The position numbers and the translations under genes are program-made. Shown piece by piece: positions 32,730 through 41,191 of a DNA stretch of 64,000 nt; position 1 is the stretch's first letter, and each line of letters opens with the position of its first letter. The notes below the pieces were generated by a model. The model was not told the origin of the DNA. It saw only the letters and a program-made list of their open reading frames with translations, and ran no database searches. The DNA is from Bryobacteraceae bacterium (lineage in GTDB: Bacteria > Acidobacteriota > Terriglobia > Bryobacterales > Bryobacteraceae): NCBI GenBank assembly GCA_026002855.1, contig BPGD01000001.1, positions 1,930,001-1,994,000 of the forward strand, read 5' to 3'.

Positions 32730-34082
32730 TCAGCCCCAGAGCTCGTGCACGGGGCCGTATTCCTCTTCCTGATTGCTCGGCACGAGCGCGAAGCCGCGGC
32801 CCAGCGGGTCGTCGTGATAGACCTTCGTATAGTCGATGCCGAGGGCTGAGTAGATGGTGGCTTCGATGTCCTCGGGGCGGACGTCGCGGTTCTTCGACCA
32901 GCCCGGATCCACGGTGAAAGCGCCGGTGTCATTGGTCTGGCCGATCACCGTGCCGCCTTTCACGCCGCCGCCGGCAAACAGCACCGCCTGCTGCTGGAAG
33001 TGATCGCGCCCGTTCTGGCTGTTCAGCGGTCCGACGGTGCGGCCGAACTCGCCCATGCAGAGGATGAGCGTGCGGCTGAGCAGTCCATCGGACTTGAGGT
33101 CGGCGATCAGTTCGCCGAGGGCCAGATCGAAGGTTCGCGCCAGCGAAGCGGGGTTGGCCGGATTCAGCGCGCCCGTGTAGATGTTGGAGTGGTTGTCCCA
33201 GCCGCCCAGCGTGATCTGGATGAAGCGCGGCCCGAGGTTGGAACGGACCAGGTTGCGCGCCGCCAGGCAGGCCCGCCCGAAGGCGGTGTTGCCGTAGCGC
33301 TGCGTTTCATCGCTCGAGAAGGTGAAGACGCGGGTGACGTCGTCGTTGTACATCAGGGTGCGGGCCGTCAGGTTGAACTGTTCGTACTCGCCCACCACCG
33401 GACCGATCTCCTCGAGGGCGCGAGTTTCGGCGTCGAGTTCGAGCAGCAGCCCGTAGCGGCGGTCGAAGGCGGCTGGGCCGACCGGCGAGGTTGAGTTCGG
33501 CAGGCCGCGGCCCGCGGGGGTCACATAGAAAGGCTCCGTCCACGGCTCCAGGTAGCCGCGGTTCGGCCCGCCGCCGGAGTTCAGCGAAAGGAACGGCGGC
33601 AGCACCGCCTTTGCATCGCCCAGCTCGCGCGCCACCACGCTGCCGATGTGCGGGGCGATCTTCGAAAGGCCGGAGAGCGGGTTGCGGCCGATCTGGATCC
33701 AGGTCTGCATCAGCCCGTGCACCACCGCGTGCGTGCGCGCGCTGCGCAGGAGCGCGATGGCGTCCAGGTGTTCGGCCAGGCGCGGCAGCAGCCCGCGCGG
33801 CCAGCGGATGGGGCCGTAAGAGGTCGGCTCCATTTCGGGCGGCGTCCAGGGGCCTTCCTTGAAATCAAACGTGTCCACATGGCTGGGCGCGCCGGCCATG
33901 TTGACGAAGATCACGTATTGCGCCGTGCCCTTCACCGGAGCGTTGGCCCGCGCGATGGTCTCGAGCGACCGCCCGGGCAGGAAGAAGCTGCCCGCGACGG
34001 CGGCGCCGAGATGGCGGAAGAACACGCGGCGGTCCAGCGCCGGACGCCGCCAGAACGGTGCAAATGCAGGATTCGAGGTCAT
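32730..34082 (-). CDS. DUF1501 family protein, Tat-exported
   Basis: Sulfatase-like alkaline-phosphatase-superfamily protein of the DUF1501 family, common in Planctomycetes, Acidobacteriota and Verrucomicrobia. The product has 450 residues. The leader carries a twin-arginine-like segment (LDRRVFFRHLGAAVAGSFFLPG). Family marks are QYVIFVNMAGAPSHVDTFD, FIQITLGGWDNHSNIYTG, LILCMGEFGRTVGPLN and NGRDHFQQQAVLFAGGG. It directly follows the DUF1549/1553 gene (13 bases), the standard pairing. The function is unknown, though it may involve surface-polymer breakdown. Confidence 0.92.
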   Translation of the reverse strand: MTSNPAFAPFWRRPALDRRVFFRHLGAAVAGSFFLPGRSLETIARANAPVKGTAQYVIFVNMAGAPSHVDTFDFKEGPWTPPEMEPTSYGPIRWPRGLLPRLAEHLDAIALLRSARTHAVVHGLMQTWIQIGRNPLSGLSKIAPHIGSVVARELGDAKAVLPPFLSLNSGGGPNRGYLEPWTEPFYVTPAGRGLPNSTSPVGPAAFDRRYGLLLELDAETRALEEIGPVVGEYEQFNLTARTLMYNDDVTRVFTFSSDETQRYGNTAFGRACLAARNLVRSNLGPRFIQITLGGWDNHSNIYTGALNPANPASLARTFDLALGELIADLKSDGLLSRTLILCMGEFGRTVGPLNSQNGRDHFQQQAVLFAGGGVKGGTVIGQTNDTGAFTVDPGWSKNRDVRPEDIEATIYSALGIDYTKVYHDDPLGRGFALVPSNQEEEYGPVHELWG

Positions 34083-34095
34083 CGCCGCCCCTCCT

Positions 34096-35997
34096 TCAGT
34101 AGCTGAACAGAAACTCGATCCTGTTCATCAGCGCCCAGGCGAGGTCTTCCACCGCGGTGACGCGCGCCTGGGCGGTCGCGGCCTTTTCAAGCGTCTTCAG
34201 CGCCACGCCGCGCTCGTATGGCGTGGGCTGGCGCGAAAGAAAGGTCAGAAACATTTCTTCCACAATCTGTTCGTTGGACGCGCTGCGCGCGAGCGCGGCC
34301 AGCAGCGGCGAGGCGTTGGCGCCGCTGGCGCGGGCGCGATTGTTGGTGAACGGCGAGTTCATCAGCGTCAGCCACATCAGGATGGAGCCGTCCCGGTTGC
34401 GCTGGAGCGTGTCCCGGTTGCCGCGGTTGAAGGCGTCGAGGAAGGCGCGCGTCGTGCCGTTGGAGCGGGGCTCGCTCGTGTCCGGCAACTGCACGGCCCA
34501 GACGAAGGGCTGGTCGAAGCCCTGGACCGTATAAGGCTGCGGCAGTTGCGTGGCCTTGACGATGGCGTCGTGGATCTCTTCGGCATCGAGCCGGCGCGGC
34601 AGGCGGCGTGCGAACAGCGGAGCTTTGGTGATGTCCCAGTCGCCGTCGTAGCGCGAGCTGAGCTGATAGGCGGTGCTCCGGGCGATGAGGCGGAGCGTCT
34701 CGCGGAGGTGGAAGTCGGTCGAGCGCGCGTGTTCGGCCAGCTTTTCGAGCAGCCACGGATGCGAGGCCTGATAGGTCCAGCCCTCCGGCGGGGCCACGCG
34801 CGGGTCCAGCCGCGCCGGGTCGAGCCCGTCGACGGGCTCGGCCAGGGCGAGGCCGAACATCGCCTTCCACACCCGGTTGGCGTAATTGCGCGTAAACATC
34901 GGGTCGGCGATCATCGCCCGCACGAGCGACTCGCGCCAGTTGCCCGTGGCGGGACGGCCGTCCCGGTAAACGGGGGTGAGGTTTGTGACCGTGCGGCCGT
35001 CGACCAGCGCCGGCGCGCGGTTCGGCCGGTTGCCCGCGTTTGTATTGAGCACGTAAGCGCCGTTGGAGCGTTCGCTCACGTCCCAGGACTGGTAGTAGTA
35101 GTCCGTGGTGTCGGTGCGGCGCGCGGTCATGCTGATGCGGGCGAAGTGCGCCGCCATCTGCTGGGCCTCGAGCCGGGTCACCTTCGCGCCCCAGGCCGAA
35201 ACCATGTCGAGGTGGTACTTGCCGTTGTGGCACAGCAGGCAGTCGTAGTGACCGATGCCGAGAAAGGTGCTGGCGGTCTTCACGAGCAGCAGGTCATAGG
35301 TGTCCTGCGCCGGGCCCATCGGGGCAAAGCCGCGGATGAGAAAATTCGTGCCGGCGGTTCCGGCGTCGTAGTTGTTGCCGTTGATGGTGATGATTTCGGT
35401 GGCGATGTCGCGCCAGCTCTTGTCTTCCTTCAGCGCGTTCCGGATCCATCTGTAGAAGGCATTGCGCCCGTTGATCTGCTGGCTGCGGTTCTGGGCGATG
35501 GCCGCATTCTGGAACAGGTCGCCGAGCCAGAGCGTCCACTTATCGATGAATTCCTCGCTCGCCAGCAGCCGGTCGATCAGGCGGTCGCGCTTGTCCGGCG
35601 CCTGGTCGGCGACGAAGGCGCGGATGTCGGCCGGCGAAGGGATGCGCCCGGTGAGATCCAGCGTGACGCGCCGCAGGAACTCTTCGTCGCCGGCTATCGG
35701 CGCTGCCGGGACGCCTTCTGCCTGAAGGCGGGCGAAGATCTCCTCATCAATGAAGTTGCGCACCGGCAGCTCCGAGGCGTGCACCGTGCGCGCCGCGCGC
35801 ATCTTCGGCAGCGACCGGGCAAACTCCAGTGTGCGTTCATAGGCTTCCCGCCGCGCCCGCAGGCCGCGCATCTGCACCTGTTCCGGCGCGGCGATCCAGC
35901 TACAGTTCTCGGCGGAAACAGCCGGCCATCCGTCCTGTTGTGCCTGCCCCGCTGATGCCAGCAGCGTTCCCAGGAGAATCAGCGGTTTCCACGGCAT
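34096..35997 (-). CDS. DUF1549/DUF1553 family protein with CxxCH motif
   Basis: Large exported protein (633 residues) with signal peptide MPWKPLILLGTLLASAGQAQ. DUF1549 covers about 60-260 (VRNFIDEEIFARLQAEGV, RLIDRLLASEEFIDKWTLW). A CxxCH haem-type motif is DCLLCHNGKYH. DUF1553 occupies most of the C-terminal half (YANRVWKAMFGLALAEPVDG, RSTDFHLRETLRLIARSTAYQ). GGAGGGG lies about 7 bases before the ATG. Companion of the DUF1501 gene downstream. A haem or redox link is suggested by the CxxCH but not proven. Confidence 0.92.
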   Translation of the reverse strand: MPWKPLILLGTLLASAGQAQQDGWPAVSAENCSWIAAPEQVQMRGLRARREAYERTLEFARSLPKMRAARTVHASELPVRNFIDEEIFARLQAEGVPAAPIAGDEEFLRRVTLDLTGRIPSPADIRAFVADQAPDKRDRLIDRLLASEEFIDKWTLWLGDLFQNAAIAQNRSQQINGRNAFYRWIRNALKEDKSWRDIATEIITINGNNYDAGTAGTNFLIRGFAPMGPAQDTYDLLLVKTASTFLGIGHYDCLLCHNGKYHLDMVSAWGAKVTRLEAQQMAAHFARISMTARRTDTTDYYYQSWDVSERSNGAYVLNTNAGNRPNRAPALVDGRTVTNLTPVYRDGRPATGNWRESLVRAMIADPMFTRNYANRVWKAMFGLALAEPVDGLDPARLDPRVAPPEGWTYQASHPWLLEKLAEHARSTDFHLRETLRLIARSTAYQLSSRYDGDWDITKAPLFARRLPRRLDAEEIHDAIVKATQLPQPYTVQGFDQPFVWAVQLPDTSEPRSNGTTRAFLDAFNRGNRDTLQRNRDGSILMWLTLMNSPFTNNRARASGANASPLLAALARSASNEQIVEEMFLTFLSRQPTPYERGVALKTLEKAATAQARVTAVEDLAWALMNRIEFLFSY

Positions 35998-36395
35998 GGA
36001 ACACCCCTCCACGGCTCGATAACAAGAAGCATACACTCCGGGACGAAATTCTCCAAGCAGCGGATGACACGAAAGAGGGCCAAAAAATGACTGAACCTGG
36101 CGCGAGTACGGCGCGATTGGCTCCAATCGAACATCATCGTCTTCCGAGCCGTGAGTGAAGCAGCACGAGGCGCTGCGGGAACGGGCGGCCAGCGGCGCAG
36201 CCTGAGCCTGCGCAGCGGCTGGCCGCAACCGCTCCTTCCGCTCGCCCCGCGGGCGAGCTCCAGCCGGGGCTCAAAAGCGCGAGTGAAGGGCATGATTTCC
36301 GGCGGCGTGGAGCTGCCGGGTGCGAGGGCGGTGAGGTGCACAGGGTGCAGCACTCCGACGGGGACGAAAGTCGGAGAGCGGCTGACGGGGTCAGT
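35998..36395. other. Intergenic region with hairpins, no gene seen
   Basis: 398 bases between the DUF1549/1553 start and the stop of the next minus-strand gene. Contents: a hairpin with 9-base arms (GCGGCCAGC, 36185-36193, and GCTGGCCGC, 36218-36226), repeat copy C, and a 17-base match to 10731-10747 at 36168-36184. No protein with a start site and family signature was found. Any promoter for the DUF1549/1553 gene should lie at its left end. Confidence 0.55.
36239..36285 (+). repeat. Dispersed palindromic intergenic repeat, copy C
   Basis: TCCGCTCGCC, CCGC, GGGCGAGCTCC, AGCCG, GGGCTCAAAAGCGCGAG. The second half is identical to copy D (45497-45552, minus strand) over the 15 bases GGCTCAAAAGCGCGA. 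GCTCGCC and GGCGAGC form a hairpin with a variable loop. Confidence 0.65.
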
Positions 36396-38225
36396 TCAAT
36401 TCAGCCAAATTTGGTGCCGGCCCGGAGGCAGATAGCGGACGCGCCCGCTGCCGGCATAGATGGCGATGGCGCGGACGCGGCTTTCGTATTCCATCCTCCA
36501 CATGCCGTCTACCTGGTCGACGGAGAGGATGGAGCCGTTGAAGTCTTCGAGCACCGGATCCACGTCTGTCCGGCAGCGCTCCACCCGGTTCCTGCCCGGC
36601 GGCAACAGCAGCCGGCCCTGGGACCGGATGGGCCACGGCCTGCCGTTGACCTCGGCACAGCCTTCCCATCGGAGGGCCACGGGGTGTGTTGACTCGACCC
36701 ATGCGGCCCCGTCCGTTTCTTCCTTCCAGGTGGCGCGCGCGGCGGCCGCGGCCAGCAGCGGCCAGTCCGGGGCGAGGATCGAGTTCTCGAAGTAAATAGC
36801 CACCTGATCGAACGACCGCGAGGCCCAGTGCAAGAGCTGGAAGAGCTCGCCGCCGGTCTGGTGTTTCGTCGGGTAGACGTCCTGATAGCGCTCGACGATG
36901 TTGATGTCGGCGCCCAGCCGCACTCCCTTGGGAACAATGGGCGCGTAGCGGCGCGCCAGTTCCGCATAGCGTTCCGGGCCGAGGTTCCAGATGGTCGCCG
37001 GATCCTCCACGAGAAACGTCGCGCCGAAACGCGCCGCCTCGGGCAACAGCGCCGCGGCATCGGCGCCGAGATTGTCCCGCATCGTCGTGTCGAAGCGGTC
37101 ATCGACGTGAGTCAGCACGACGTCCAGCGCCCCGCGCGCGTCGGCGATGCGGCGGATCTTTTCCAGCCATTCCACCTGCAACCGGTGCGCCAGCCGCGCG
37201 CGGAAGTCGAGAAAGCGCCGCATGGGGGCGCTGTCGCGGTAGTGATAGAAGCGCGAGGCGGGGTTGTACAGATCGGCGGGGTCCACGCCCGTTTCCCTTT
37301 GGAACTGGCGGCGCACGGTTTCGTTGAACGGGGTAAAGCGCGCCGGATTGAGATACCCTTCCAGCGACTCGAAGTAGAGCTCGGCCAGATTCACACCGTC
37401 CCAATCGAAGCGCGTCAGCAGTTGCCGAAGCCCTGTCTCCACGGCGGCCGCGCAATCCGGGTCCGCCAGGTTCATGAGTTTGCGCCAGTCCAGCCTGGCG
37501 TCCTGCCCCGTGGCGGTCTTTTCGCGCCACCCGGGGTGCGCGTCCCAGAAGGCGTCGCTGACGTGCGGCAGCTCGATCCAGGCATAGACGTGGATGGCGC
37601 GCCGGTGGCAGGCTTCGATCAGACGCCGCAGATAGGCGTCGCGCGCCCCGTCCGGCTCCCAATACTGCCAGGCGGCCACGTGGATGGCGCTGAAGCCGGA
37701 GCGCCGCCAGCGGGCCGCCAGATAATCGGGATCGGCGCGGAGACGATAGGAAGAGTCAAAGAACGCCCACAGAGAGCGGGACTCCACCCGCGGCGCCAGC
37801 CCCAGTTCGACGAGCGCCTGCGCCAGATAGGGATATCGCTCGTAGCCGCGGTCGCCGACCGCCGTGGCCGTCCAGAAGACGATTCGACCGCCGTCGCGGA
37901 AGCCCGCCGCCAGCGGCGCTCCGGTCCACCGTTCCCGCGTGAAGACGGTGGCCCGTGGCGGCACTTCAAAGCGCGGGACGCTCACCGGCTTTTCCCAGAC
38001 GATATGGAGCGACGGCAGAAACGTGTCCGTCACGCTGCGGACCTCCACCCGCTCCCGCGTGGGGTGGAACCCTGCCGCGCGGGCCTGCGCTGAATCACCC
38101 TCCAGCCATACGAGTCTTGAGCCGTCCAGTCCCGTCGATTCAAGCACGCGCTGCCAATTGCCCTGCGCCGGCGTCAGCCACAGCGCCGCGATCAGACAGG
38201 CCGCGCTAATACCGCGTGTGCGCAT
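36396..38225 (-). CDS. Secreted glycoside-hydrolase-like TIM-barrel protein
   Basis: The product has 609 residues with signal peptide MRTRGISAACLIAALWLTPAQG. After an N-terminal beta-rich stretch, residues about 170-420 look like a (beta/alpha)8 barrel of the GHL10 or PgaB C-terminal type: FSAIHVAAWQYWEPDG, AIHVYAWIELPHVSDAFWDA, DWDGVNLAELYFESLEGYLN, DVVLTHVDDRFDTTM. A C-terminal beta part follows. The first coding bases overlap the TPR/barrel gene by 20 bases. A polysaccharide-processing role tied to the outer-membrane partner is inferred from context; the family assignment is moderate. Confidence 0.72.
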   Translation of the reverse strand: MRTRGISAACLIAALWLTPAQGNWQRVLESTGLDGSRLVWLEGDSAQARAAGFHPTRERVEVRSVTDTFLPSLHIVWEKPVSVPRFEVPPRATVFTRERWTGAPLAAGFRDGGRIVFWTATAVGDRGYERYPYLAQALVELGLAPRVESRSLWAFFDSSYRLRADPDYLAARWRRSGFSAIHVAAWQYWEPDGARDAYLRRLIEACHRRAIHVYAWIELPHVSDAFWDAHPGWREKTATGQDARLDWRKLMNLADPDCAAAVETGLRQLLTRFDWDGVNLAELYFESLEGYLNPARFTPFNETVRRQFQRETGVDPADLYNPASRFYHYRDSAPMRRFLDFRARLAHRLQVEWLEKIRRIADARGALDVVLTHVDDRFDTTMRDNLGADAAALLPEAARFGATFLVEDPATIWNLGPERYAELARRYAPIVPKGVRLGADINIVERYQDVYPTKHQTGGELFQLLHWASRSFDQVAIYFENSILAPDWPLLAAAAARATWKEETDGAAWVESTHPVALRWEGCAEVNGRPWPIRSQGRLLLPPGRNRVERCRTDVDPVLEDFNGSILSVDQVDGMWRMEYESRVRAIAIYAGSGRVRYLPPGRHQIWLN

Positions 38226-39954
38226 ACCAGACTCCGGTGCGGAAATCCCAATAGTTTGGTCCCCACGGGTTCAATGCATTGCGCAGATGCGCGCCCCGCA
38301 CAAATTCGGCCCGCCAGGTCATCCCCGAAGGCAGAAAGGGCCCGCGGAGGCGCACACCGAGGCCCGCTTCGGCGAAATTGCCCCAATACTCGCCCTTCCG
38401 GTCCACGGTGACGTTCCATACGGCATAGATCTGCGCCTGCGCGCCCGACGGTGCGGCCGGCAGGGTGAATCCGCTGCGGTTCTGCACATAGGCGAGCATG
38501 TTGTGGCGGAACCGAGACGCATACACGCCGTCCACGTTCAGCTCATGGAACCAGCCCTGGCCTCGCCCGTTCAGCAGATGGCCCCAGCCTTTCAGCAGCG
38601 ACACTCCACCTCGGCCGTCCCAACGGGAGCGGCTCTCGTAAAAGCGGCGCTCGCCGTAGGTGAAGGCGCGGCCCGCCTCAAACCAGACGAAGGCCGCCGG
38701 GTGGAGGGCGCGAAACAGTCCCACGGCGCCGATCAAGCTCTTCTCGCTGAGATACAGCGGCAAAGCGGCGCGCGCCGATTCGCGGCCGCCCGCCGTGTCG
38801 CCGACAAGCCGCAGCGAGAGATACGGCGAGACGGGCAGCCCGGGGAGCCGCCACTGGCCCTTCACCTGCCCGTAGGCGAACCCGCCTCGCCAGCGGGAGG
38901 AATAGATCGGGATCGCCCAGACGTCCGTCGTGAAGCGGCTGTACTTGGGTAGCAGTGCAAGATACCCTTCGCGGGCCCGGGCGGCGATTTCCGGGTCCGC
39001 GGCGCGGCGCGCCCGGGCGAACCAGCGCAAAGCCTCTTCGTCCCGCCCGAGCAGGTTGGCGGTGACGCCCGCCATGTATTGTGCGCGGGCATCCTGCGGA
39101 TTCTCATCGACGGCGAGGCGGAAGTAGCGGTAGGCGTCCTGAATGAAGCTCGACGCCAGCGACCGCTCTCCCATCTCAAAGGGAGGCAGCGGCGCGGCCG
39201 CGGCCACTTCCACGTCCGGCCGCACCGCCGGCACGGCCAGTTCGGCGTCGCCGTCGCCGGGCGGTTGTCCATTCATCATTTCGCGGGCCAGCTCGCCGAT
39301 GCGCGTGGAGCCGCGCCGCCACGCCGTGGCCAGGGCGGCGCGCGCCTGTGGTTCGCGCCCCAGCTCGCGCCAGACGCGCGCCATATCGAGCAGCAATTCG
39401 TACTTCTGGGGCCGCAGCTTCCAGGCCAGCTCATAATGTTCGGCGGCCAGCGTCAGCTCGTCCCGCATTTCGGCCAGCCGGGCCAGCTCTTCGTGGCCCG
39501 ACCACTGCTGCGGAGCCCGGCGCACGGCCTCGCTCCATTGCGCGATCCCTTCCCGCAGGGGACGATCCACGCGTTCGAAGGCGTCTTCGGCCGTGCGCCG
39601 GACGGCCGGATCGCGCGCGCCGAGGCGCAGCCCGTGGAAGACGCGCCGCGCCTCCTGCACCATGCGCGTCTCGTAGCACAGAAAGGCATATTCCAGCGCG
39701 GAGGTTTCATCGGAGGGGTCCTCGCGCCGCAGCCGGTCAAACTGTTGCCGCGCCTGCTCCCGGTCTCCGCGGCGCAGCAGGGTGTAGGCCAGGTCCTTGC
39801 GCACGTGGCGGAGGCCCGGGTCGGCCTCCAGCGCCTGCTCGAACGCCTGCACGGCGTCGTCGTAGCGGCCCGCGCGCAGGGCCTCGTAGCCCCTGTCGGC
39901 CAGCGCCGCAGCCTCGCTGAACAGGCCTGGCAGCAGGAGGAGCGCAACCAGCAT
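38206..39954 (-). CDS. TPR protein with C-terminal outer-membrane barrel-like domain
   Basis: The product has 582 residues with short signal peptide MLVALLLLPGLFSEAAA. Residues 15-330 hold tetratricopeptide repeats (YEALRAGRYDDAVQAFEQAL, KDLAYTLLRRGDREQARQQF, YMAGVTANLLGRDEEALRWF). Residues 340-582 look like membrane beta strands (GGFAYGQVKGQWRLPG, LVGDTAGGRESARAALPLYL, NFAEAGLGVRLRG, FRTGVWYAHTRY). This layout recalls PgaA, PelB and NfrA, which export or bind exopolysaccharides. It overlaps the glycoside-hydrolase-like gene by 20 bases. No glycosyltransferase is adjacent. The frame extends to 40014, but the ATG at 39954 fits the signal peptide. Confidence 0.75.
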   Translation of the reverse strand: MLVALLLLPGLFSEAAALADRGYEALRAGRYDDAVQAFEQALEADPGLRHVRKDLAYTLLRRGDREQARQQFDRLRREDPSDETSALEYAFLCYETRMVQEARRVFHGLRLGARDPAVRRTAEDAFERVDRPLREGIAQWSEAVRRAPQQWSGHEELARLAEMRDELTLAAEHYELAWKLRPQKYELLLDMARVWRELGREPQARAALATAWRRGSTRIGELAREMMNGQPPGDGDAELAVPAVRPDVEVAAAAPLPPFEMGERSLASSFIQDAYRYFRLAVDENPQDARAQYMAGVTANLLGRDEEALRWFARARRAADPEIAARAREGYLALLPKYSRFTTDVWAIPIYSSRWRGGFAYGQVKGQWRLPGLPVSPYLSLRLVGDTAGGRESARAALPLYLSEKSLIGAVGLFRALHPAAFVWFEAGRAFTYGERRFYESRSRWDGRGGVSLLKGWGHLLNGRGQGWFHELNVDGVYASRFRHNMLAYVQNRSGFTLPAAPSGAQAQIYAVWNVTVDRKGEYWGNFAEAGLGVRLRGPFLPSGMTWRAEFVRGAHLRNALNPWGPNYWDFRTGVWYAHTRY

Positions 39955-40012: not shown

Positions 40013-41191
40013 ATGAAACATATGGCCGCCTATCACGGTTTCGACTACCTGCTCATCGACAGCCAGCTTACCGAGGACGAAAAGCTGGTCCGCCAAACCA
40101 CCCGCCAGTGGGTGGAGGACCGTGTCGTCCCGATCATCAAGGACTGTTACAACGAGGGCCGCTTCCCCTCCGAGCTGATCCGCGAGATGGGCGAGATGGG
40201 CTTCCTCGGCGCCAACCTGGAGGGTTACGGCGCGGCCGGCATGAGCAACGTTGAATACGGGCTCATCATGCAGGAGCTCGAACGCGGCGACTCCGGCCTG
40301 CGCAGCTTCGCCAGCGTGCAGGGCGCGCTCGTCATGTATCCCATCCTCACCTATGGAAGCGAAGAGCAGAAGAAAAAGTACCTGCCCAAACTCGCCACGG
40401 GTGAGTTCATCGGCTGCTTCGGCCTCACCGAGCCCGGCTTCGGCTCCAACCCCGGCGGTATGACCACCACGGCCGTGCGCGACGGCAGCCACTGGGTGCT
40501 GAACGGCGAGAAGACCTGGATCACCAACGGCAGCGCCGCCGATGTGGCCGTCGTCTGGGCCCGCACCGCCGAGGGCATCCGCGGTTTTCTCGTCGAAAAG
40601 GACACGCCGGGCTACCGGACGTCGGACATCCACGGAAAGCTGTCGATGCGCGCCTCGGTCACCTCGTCGCTGTCGTTCACGGATTGCCGGATCCCCGAGG
40701 CGATGCGCCTGCCCGATGCGATCGGGCTGAAGGCGGCGCTGTCCTGCCTGTCGCAGGCGCGCTATGGCATTGGTTGGGGCGTACTGGGTCCGGCGATGGA
40801 GTGCATGGAAGTGGCGCGGCGCTACGCGATCGAACGAAAGCAGTTCGACAACCGCCCCATCGCCTCCCACCAGCTTGTTCAGGAGAAGCTGGCCTGGATG
40901 GCCACCGAGATCACCAAGGGGCAGTTGCTGGCGCTGCACTGCGGGCGGCTGAAGGACCAGGGCCGGCTCGACTTCGCCCACATTTCGATGCTCAAGCGCA
41001 ACAACGTGGCCATTGCGCTGGAATGCGCGCGGCTGGCGCGCGACCTGCTGGGCGCCAACGGCATTGTGGACGACTATCCCATCATGCGCCATCTGTGCAA
41101 TCTCGAGACGGTGAAGACCTACGAGGGCACGGATCACATCCACGCGCTCGTCATCGGCGAGCGGCTCACGGGAATCGCCGCCTACAAGTAA
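40013..41191 (+). CDS. gcdH: Glutaryl-CoA dehydrogenase-like acyl-CoA dehydrogenase
   Basis: FAD enzyme that oxidises and decarboxylates glutaryl-CoA to crotonyl-CoA in lysine/tryptophan breakdown. The product has 392 residues. The catalytic Glu lies in KTYEGTDHIHALVIGERLTG (E371). An Arg at the place that binds the glutaryl carboxylate is present in DSGLRSFASVQ (R97). FAD and substrate segments CFGLTEPGFGSNPGG and GEKTWITNGSAADVAVVWAR are intact. The in-frame ATGs at 40013 and 40022 give only a three-residue difference. The CusF-like gene follows after 26 bases. Confidence 0.92.
   Translation: MKHMAAYHGFDYLLIDSQLTEDEKLVRQTTRQWVEDRVVPIIKDCYNEGRFPSELIREMGEMGFLGANLEGYGAAGMSNVEYGLIMQELERGDSGLRSFASVQGALVMYPILTYGSEEQKKKYLPKLATGEFIGCFGLTEPGFGSNPGGMTTTAVRDGSHWVLNGEKTWITNGSAADVAVVWARTAEGIRGFLVEKDTPGYRTSDIHGKLSMRASVTSSLSFTDCRIPEAMRLPDAIGLKAALSCLSQARYGIGWGVLGPAMECMEVARRYAIERKQFDNRPIASHQLVQEKLAWMATEITKGQLLALHCGRLKDQGRLDFAHISMLKRNNVAIALECARLARDLLGANGIVDDYPIMRHLCNLETVKTYEGTDHIHALVIGERLTGIAAYK

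Follow-up and report, generated by a model that had tools for sequence, protein, structure and literature searches.

Do an outer-membrane barrel protein and a secreted, hydrolase-like protein, encoded by overlapping genes with no polymer synthase beside them, form the exit of an exopolysaccharide pathway, and if so, where is the rest of the pathway encoded? The question is raised by a stretch of 64,000 nucleotides (the window; positions 1,930,001 to 1,994,000 of contig BPGD01000001.1, assembly GCA_026002855.1) that is part of the single-contig, 4.44 Mb genome of a Bryobacteraceae bacterium (labeled G000). We consider it likely that the two genes encode the channel through which an exopolysaccharide leaves the cell and a periplasmic enzyme that trims it, both serving a synthase-dependent pathway of the Nfr kind. 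The best reading of that pathway is that it is scattered, with its genes unlinked and not reduced. Computed support comes from the open reading frames (ORFs), the predicted folds of their products, a coupled overlap, co-occurrence with a synthase, and the neighborhoods of homologues; the polymer, its sugar, and its export, cutting, and docking are what we infer.

An Overlapping Gene Pair Conserved among Relatives

The hydrolase-like ORF (36396-38225, minus strand) encodes 609 amino acids (aa). The tetratricopeptide repeat (TPR)/barrel ORF (38206-39954, minus strand) encodes 582 aa from an ATG at 39954, or 602 aa from an alternative upstream ATG at 40014. An earlier note on this DNA had described a TPR-plus-barrel protein whose gene overlaps that of a TIM-barrel protein by 20 bases; both ORFs are where it placed them and the overlap is exactly 20 bases. 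By eye, a signal-peptide-like stretch is at the start of both proteins. The features of the pair, all on the minus strand, are:

38206..39954, minus: TPR plus outer-membrane barrel protein of 582 aa (P0002), the proposed exit channel, NfrA-type in role
38941..39915, minus: TPR helical domain, residues 14-338 (Pfam and model)
38212..38934, minus: predicted 12-stranded barrel, residues 341-581 (AlphaFold2 model and barrel profile A6)
36396..38225, minus: glycoside-hydrolase-like, secreted-looking protein of 609 aa (P0001; ORF, homologues, and model)
37782..38138, minus: N-terminal region, residues 30-148, aligning with a part of long fusions that weakly matches DUF4350; shortened in the window protein
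36732..37772, minus: TIM barrel, residues 152-498 (model; closest fold by VIA-align is the PgaB C-terminal domain)
37380..37382, minus: codon of Glu282, a residue that follows strand beta-4, is identical in 69 of 69 rows and, in a motif reading, is at the position of the PgaB catalytic Asp
36402..36713, minus: C-terminal beta domain, residues 505-608 (model)
38206..38225, minus: 20-base overlap; the hydrolase ATG (38225-38223) is within the Tyr-Ala codons of the WYA motif at the C-terminus of the barrel protein, in the final strand

A search of genome contigs with an alignment as query recovered 266 relatives, and the 80 best served as named loci; unlike the alignment, the single protein used as query recovered no relatives from the contigs. 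Across 61 relatives, the hydrolase is found in 41, including 35 of 37 genomes of the window's own family, and the barrel part is found in exactly those 41. The barrel gene is directly upstream of the hydrolase gene in 77 of the 80 loci; contig ends account for two of the remaining three, and in the third (L086) the two genes are genuinely separate. In 73 of the 77 loci, a hydrolase ATG with an open frame overlaps the end of the barrel gene by 17 or 20 bases. The Tyr codon that holds the overlapping ATG is TAT in 74 of 75 cases versus 688 of 1904 for the remaining Tyr codons of these genes (binomial p of 9e-32, uncorrected for ancestry). The adjacency and overlapping start of the pair are not due to chance.

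An NfrB-Type Synthase Encoded Elsewhere in the Genome

As the earlier note had observed, there is no glycosyltransferase (GT) or deacetylase nearby: a Pfam scan of eight window proteins (∼30.5-43.0 kb, pair included) found none. The rest of the genome has 25 matches to PF13641, a glycosyltransferase family 2 (GT2) family, and the best of these, P0011 (G000:C1:3806018-3807490), is encoded 1.84 Mb from the pair. P0011 is 35% identical to Escherichia coli NfrB over 492 columns and conserves D169, D267, and W330, the GT residues that were mutated in a study of NfrB (PMC8669469). It passes the NCBIfam model PRK14716.1-3 (454.5 bits; cut-off of 409), falls below the cut-off of the full-length NCBIfam NfrB model (307.3 bits vs. 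1170), and has no MshEN domain that we could find. Also in G000 are two genes of the UDP-N-acetylglucosamine 2-epimerase (WecB) family.

The distribution of the P0011-type GT follows that of the pair. The GT is present in 40 of the 61 relatives; 38 have both pair and GT, 18 have neither, three have the pair only (G013, G023, and G025), and two have the GT only (G007 and G020). Outside the window's family, the pair and the GT are each present in six of 24 genomes, the identical six, among them one genome from a genus in which neither pair nor GT is present in the two further members sampled. Fisher tests, uncorrected for ancestry, gave p values of 1.7e-10 for the 61 genomes and 7e-6 for the 24 outside the family. 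As a control, another GT2 of G000 is present in 59 of 61 genomes (E up to 1e-20) and thus does not track the pair. The earlier note had suggested that the pair may be a reduced or unlinked version of known systems. Unlinked is supported, given a synthase 1.84 Mb away that tracks the pair, whereas reduced is not needed because the genome has both an NfrB-type synthase and two WecB-family genes.

In all, three GT2 proteins of G000 were profiled across the relatives. P0010, an MshEN-GT2 protein considered as a general partner controlled by cyclic di-GMP (c-di-GMP), was dropped because five of 61 genomes have it at this score (E up to 1e-60). Separately, G000 has MshEN-GT2 in two copies that are 96% identical (L168:8404-10296 and G000:C1:3471221-3473113), and beside the first copy is a gene for a protein that appears barrel-like by eye and has no Pfam match. 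The duplicated MshEN-GT2 is probably a second, recently duplicated, c-di-GMP-linked polymer system.

Predicted Folds of the Two Proteins

Structure prediction, which the earlier note had proposed as a check, yielded a TIM barrel for one product and a 12-stranded barrel for the other. The hydrolase model has a predicted local distance difference test (pLDDT) score of 90.8 and a predicted template modeling (pTM) score of 0.90. Its best match by VIA-align is the C-terminal domain of PgaB (Z of 24.9, root-mean-square deviation of 3.4, 317 residues aligned), followed by Bordetella PgaB (Z of 23.7) and GH42 enzymes (Z of 22.7). Ordered by E-value, the Foldseek matches begin with lacto-N-biosidase and beta-amylase, and PgaB holds rank 32; among the 50 matches listed, PgaB has the highest target-normalized TM-score (0.67).

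The resemblance to PgaB-type or GHL10 hydrolases that the earlier note had seen is therefore borne out at the level of fold, as the window hydrolase has the TIM-barrel fold of the PgaB C-terminal domain by VIA-align, and not at the level of sequence membership. Alignment by hhalign with a single PgaB sequence, that of E. coli, gave a probability of 0.5%, and the window protein scores 15.3 bits against GHL10 (cut-off of 27.9). GHL10 matches at E up to 0.1 occur in 28 of 37 hydrolase family members, including the window protein, with a best E of 1.1e-7. Pfam scans of the hydrolase and its family members found no deacetylase domain of the PgaB N-terminal type, and a sequence search of the PDB with the hydrolase profile found no relative (best E of 0.16). 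Twelve residues are invariant in 69 of 69 aligned rows: Asp157, Glu218, Asp246, Asp276, Glu282, Glu286, Asp375, Glu407, Asp408, Asp440, Asn442, and Glu480. Such a set of acidic and Asn residues fits what would be expected of an active enzyme. A gapless motif reading, as distinct from a structural superposition, places Glu282 where PgaB has its catalytic Asp (D474 in the Bordetella enzyme; motif from PMC5933820).

The partner protein has TPR repeats (Pfam TPR_19, E of 1.8e-22), and in its AlphaFold2 model (pLDDT of 91.1, pTM of 0.54), TPR helices extend to residue 338 and are followed by 12 strands (residues 341-581). A PgaA or NfrA layout, as the earlier note had put it, is right in that TPRs precede a predicted barrel, but the number of strands is 12 and neither family is matched. 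The barrels of PgaA and BcsC are reported to have 16 strands (PMC9384988). The window protein scores 11.9 bits against the PgaA model TIGR03939 (cut-off of 366.65) and, in a comparison with the one PgaA sequence of E. coli, has no significant sequence relationship to it beyond TPR repeats. At E up to 1, NfrA_C (PF13283) does not match the window protein, whereas it matches E. coli NfrA itself at 9.7e-68. The VIA-align matches to the model are TPR domains and, because these fill the match list, the barrel fold is barely tested by this comparison; BcsC is among the Foldseek matches (E of 2.9e-6). A low-confidence linker in the TPR domain (residues 246-252, pLDDT <50) is at a site where relatives have extra repeats. 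In the window's genus, the TPR-barrel protein, with this linker between TPR blocks, is ∼75 residues shorter than the median of relatives (582 vs. 657 aa).

Barrel, Synthase, and Epimerase Genes in Other Acidobacteriota

Physical links between the pair and a synthase are rare. Profile searches of ORFs in the 80 loci (1.43 Mb) for a linked synthase found the GT2 of the fusion clusters described below, DUF2334, and a PgaB-type deacetylase in none, a PgaC-like GT in two, a GT4 in three, and WecB in one. An NfrB-type gene is near the pair in one of the 80 loci (L109) and in none of 40 further loci. Separation of the pair from polysaccharide genes, which the earlier note had named as a point that would speak against an exit module, is thus nearly but not fully complete. 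In L109, a 7.7-kb contig of a Bryobacteraceae metagenome-assembled genome, the NfrB-type gene is 2.2 kb from the pair, on the opposite strand and divergent; it is cut by the contig end and its product is 54% identical to P0011 over 336 columns. Between it and the pair are genes that by eye are phosphoesterase-like and transposase-like. A phosphoesterase-like gene, also assigned by eye, adjoins the NfrB-type gene in three Bryobacteraceae loci (L109:1189-2025, L206:8843-9748, and L208:10710-11585).

In a sample of 297 genomes of the phylum, the barrel profile matches five, all within the 13 that have an NfrB-type GT. Two of the five are outside the window's family (one of the same class, the other of the same phylum only), and in both, the barrel gene adjoins the GT gene. 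In L199, the barrel gene is 27 bp upstream of the GT gene, as measured between longest frames, and encodes 541 aa with TPRs. In L200, it overlaps the GT gene by 4 bp and encodes 434 aa without TPRs by Pfam. The same L200 locus has a single ORF (L200:9582-12926, genome G261) that joins the NfrB-type GT to a WecB-type epimerase (Epimerase_2, E of 3.1e-101), a fusion relevant to which sugar NfrB-type enzymes use. Among other NfrB-type loci, WecB is nearby in L201, L204, and L205, and a DUF2334 protein is nearby in L201 and L203.

Homologues of the hydrolase have their own links to polysaccharide genes. The hydrolase profile matches 11 of the 297 genomes, three of them within the window's family. 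Of the other eight, seven have the hydrolase inside a long ORF (∼1290-1660 aa), and the eighth (G184) has a weak match, likewise in a long frame. A segment of DUF2334, which we take to be a deacetylase-like domain by clan, is present in eight of eight fusions, that is, those seven and L163 from a relative of the same order; Pfam confirmed it for four. The stand-alone hydrolase is homologous to the C-terminal part of one DUF2334 fusion over 600 columns (29% identity, E of 2.4e-69). Glu282, Asp375, Glu407, Asp408, Asp440, and Asn442 are kept in seven of eight fusions and Glu480 in all eight. In loci L151-L157, a GT2 of one family is present in seven of seven and WecB in five of seven; in the two without WecB (L152 and L154), the GT2 is cut by the contig end or the contig is short. 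The one fusion-locus GT2 that was scanned is PgaC-like (145.5 bits vs. a PgaC cut-off of 422.3), and the remaining ones are related to it. A tree of 47 rows unites 38 stand-alone hydrolases in one group (support of 100/100); eight fusions and a short paralogue are outside it.

The pair is not a dispersed remnant of such a fusion cluster, because an ortholog of the partner GT2 of the clusters is present at high score in only one of 61 relatives (G037, 7.7e-179) and G000 has no DUF2334. The best match to this GT2 in G000 is a different GT2 (4.7e-41), and DUF2334 is present in eight of the 61 genomes, above cut-off in four. A small barrel-like protein of the fusion clusters was rejected as a relative of the window barrel (hhalign probability of 0.9%). 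A protein of ∼250 aa that is barrel-like by eye is common to NfrB-type loci (L204 and L205) and fusion loci (L155 and L156), with matches of >100 bits. Channels, synthases, WecB, and hydrolases seem to have been recombined within one theme across Acidobacteriota. The guess of an exit module made in the earlier note has gained good support, as a synthase tracks the pair and homologues of each partner are encoded beside GT2 or WecB-type genes in other Acidobacteriota.

Two further observations concern the fusions. WecB, a DUF2334-GHL fusion, and a PgaC-like GT2 are encoded together at L151, L153, L155, L156, and L157, with a small barrel-like protein in two of these, and this is possibly an undescribed exopolysaccharide locus of other Acidobacteriota. 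At L068:8529-11809 (G057), two hydrolase genes overlap, one of the stand-alone type and the other a divergent paralogue grouping with the G037 fusion; the TPR-barrel gene is on a different contig.

A Proposed Pathway and Its Alternatives

In E. coli, NfrB and NfrA are reported to make and export a WecB-dependent polymer, for which the authors propose N-acetylmannosamine (ManNAc) content (PMC8669472, PMC8669469). By analogy with Nfr and Pga, we suggest that the pair serves a polymer made by P0011. A WecB-type epimerase would make UDP-ManNAc, and the NfrB-type membrane GT, encoded elsewhere, would polymerize the sugar and push the chain into the periplasm. There, the TPR domain would guide the chain and dock the GHL hydrolase, which could cut chains that are over-long or stalled, and the chain would leave through the 12-stranded barrel. 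Coupled translation would keep channel and hydrolase in step. Co-expressed PgaA is reported to raise the hydrolase activity of PgaB (PMC9384988).

The proposed system resembles the Nfr (NGR) system of E. coli (NfrB, NfrA, YbcH, and WecB) in having an NfrB-type GT2 with conserved catalytic residues, a candidate TPR-plus-barrel partner, WecB-family genes, and a putative periplasmic accessory protein. It differs in that the E. coli genes are in one operon and those here are scattered, 1.84 Mb apart, in that P0011 is without MshEN and the window barrel without NfrA_C, and in that the accessory protein is not a DUF4434 protein like YbcH but a GHL protein with no detectable homology to the one YbcH sequence compared. 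The NfrA-like partnership with an NfrB-type synthase is a purely genetic association: co-occurrence across the 61 genomes, adjacency in L199 and L200, and proximity in L109. PgaA-PgaB of E. coli likewise pairs a TPR-plus-barrel protein with an adjoining periplasmic hydrolase of the same TIM-barrel fold, but the window hydrolase lacks the deacetylase domain, the barrel has 12 strands instead of 16, by the motif reading Glu stands in place of Asp at the catalytic position, and sequences do not match beyond TPR repeats. The DUF2334-GHL fusions (L151-L157 and L163) are homologous over the hydrolase protein and keep seven of its invariant residues in at least seven of eight cases, yet the hydrolase is fused behind DUF2334, is encoded beside a PgaC-like GT2 and usually WecB, and is outside the stand-alone clade. 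Overall, the pair would act like NfrA with a PgaB-like trimmer, yet the tests made place it in neither family.

Several findings weigh against an Nfr-type exit and trimming pair. The co-occurrence statistics ignore shared ancestry, and the pattern fails in five of 61 genomes; each of these is a draft of at least 480 contigs and 62-92% complete, which does not prove that a gene was missed. The NfrB-type gene near the pair is one case in 120 loci and is on a short contig that is possibly misassembled. Eight of the 13 genomes in the phylum sample with an NfrB-type GT lack this barrel. The two with the barrel gene beside the GT (L199 and L200) have no GHL match, so in these genomes the hydrolase is not tied to the adjoining GT, and in GHL-fusion loci the GT is of a different, PgaC-like kind. 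Sequence tests place neither protein in the PgaA, NfrA, or PgaB families, and the barrel has no detectable homology to NfrA (hhalign probability of 1.8% for the barrel profile against the single E. coli sequence). The pTM of 0.54 leaves the relative placement of the TPR and barrel halves uncertain. PgaA is reported to bind PgaB through the deacetylase domain, the hydrolase domain being dispensable for binding (PMC9384988); because the window hydrolase has no deacetylase domain, docking by this route is not supported. YbcH, the accessory protein of the E. coli Nfr system, is described as not essential (PMC8669469). The linkage in L109 and the caveat on PgaB binding weigh in opposite directions.

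Alternatively, the pair could serve foraging, with the GHL protein released or held at the surface to cut outside polysaccharides, the TPR-barrel protein importing the products, and the link to NfrB coincidental. Bryobacteraceae live in habitats rich in plant and microbial polymers, and oligosaccharide porins are among the 12-stranded barrels. The degradative GH42 enzymes are only ∼2 Z units under PgaB, and the top Foldseek matches are degradative. We nevertheless consider foraging improbable, as two other genomes encode barrel homologues next to NfrB-type synthases, long relatives of the hydrolase are encoded with GT2 and usually WecB, and no sugar-uptake or catabolic neighbor recurs among the families inspected, most neighbors being unannotated.

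Slightly less probable still is that the pair is a real polysaccharide unit with a different GT as its synthase, the NfrB match reflecting shared genome ancestry. The number of candidates leaves room for this, with 25 PF13641 matches in G000 and three GT2 proteins profiled, as do the five genomes that break the match. The perfect correspondence of pair and GT in the 24 genomes outside the window's family argues otherwise, as do the NfrB-type GT genes that adjoin the barrel gene in two other genomes and are 2.2 kb from the pair in L109.

Last, a mechanism like Slam or type 11 secretion, in which a TPR-plus-barrel protein would translocate the coupled, secreted GHL neighbor to the cell surface, is very unlikely: adjacent coupled genes, the shared layout, and matches of Pfam TPR_Slam to 36 of 38 TPR-barrel family members (E up to 0.1, best of 1e-10) are in its favor, but TPR models cross-match freely, the window protein is under the TPR_Slam cut-off (22.6 vs. 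35.2 bits) and has no Slam barrel match at E up to 1, a loose lipobox pattern is in just nine of 73 GHL N-termini, and two genomes that lack a GHL match encode barrel homologues next to a synthase.

Beyond the pair acting as the exit channel and trimming enzyme of an Nfr-kind pathway, we lean, with less confidence, toward a wider picture. Bryobacterales would have a conserved, scattered Nfr-type pathway in which a 12-stranded TPR-barrel takes the role of NfrA and a fusion-related hydrolase, tied to it by an overlapping start codon, completes a self-contained two-gene exit and trimming cassette. In Acidobacteriota as a whole, channels, synthases (NfrB-type or PgaC-like), WecB, and hydrolases would be variously combined, including as an NfrB-WecB fusion. 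Acidobacteriota, which are abundant in soil, reportedly make exopolysaccharides (PMC5259719). Among the papers listed by our searches of open-access literature, few genes for such polymers are named, and neither this pair nor any Nfr-type system of the phylum is described; work on E. coli treats Nfr as a phage receptor pathway whose homologues are sporadic in other Gram-negatives (PMC8669472). The NfrB-type synthase, WecB, TPR-barrel, and hydrolase provide a testable gene set for one Acidobacteriota polymer. They suggest that the Nfr pathway occurs in another phylum as well and that synthase-dependent export can be split across a chromosome, in which case surveys based on operons would miss such pathways.

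Other Genes Near the Pair

No further neighbor is general to the pair loci. In 40 loci, the frequent neighbors are an acyl-CoA dehydrogenase family (12 loci), an unannotated family of ∼440 aa (12 loci), and a MerR-like regulator assigned by eye (six loci), none of which accounts for the pair. The gene immediately 3' of the hydrolase gene belongs to one family of ∼500 aa in eight of the 80 loci (L091, L108, L125, L126, L128, and others). In the window, a DUF1501 gene adjoins a PSCyt2/PSD1 (DUF1549/DUF1553) gene immediately downstream of the pair (32730-36228, minus strand), and the DUF1501 family is present in just four of 40 loci.

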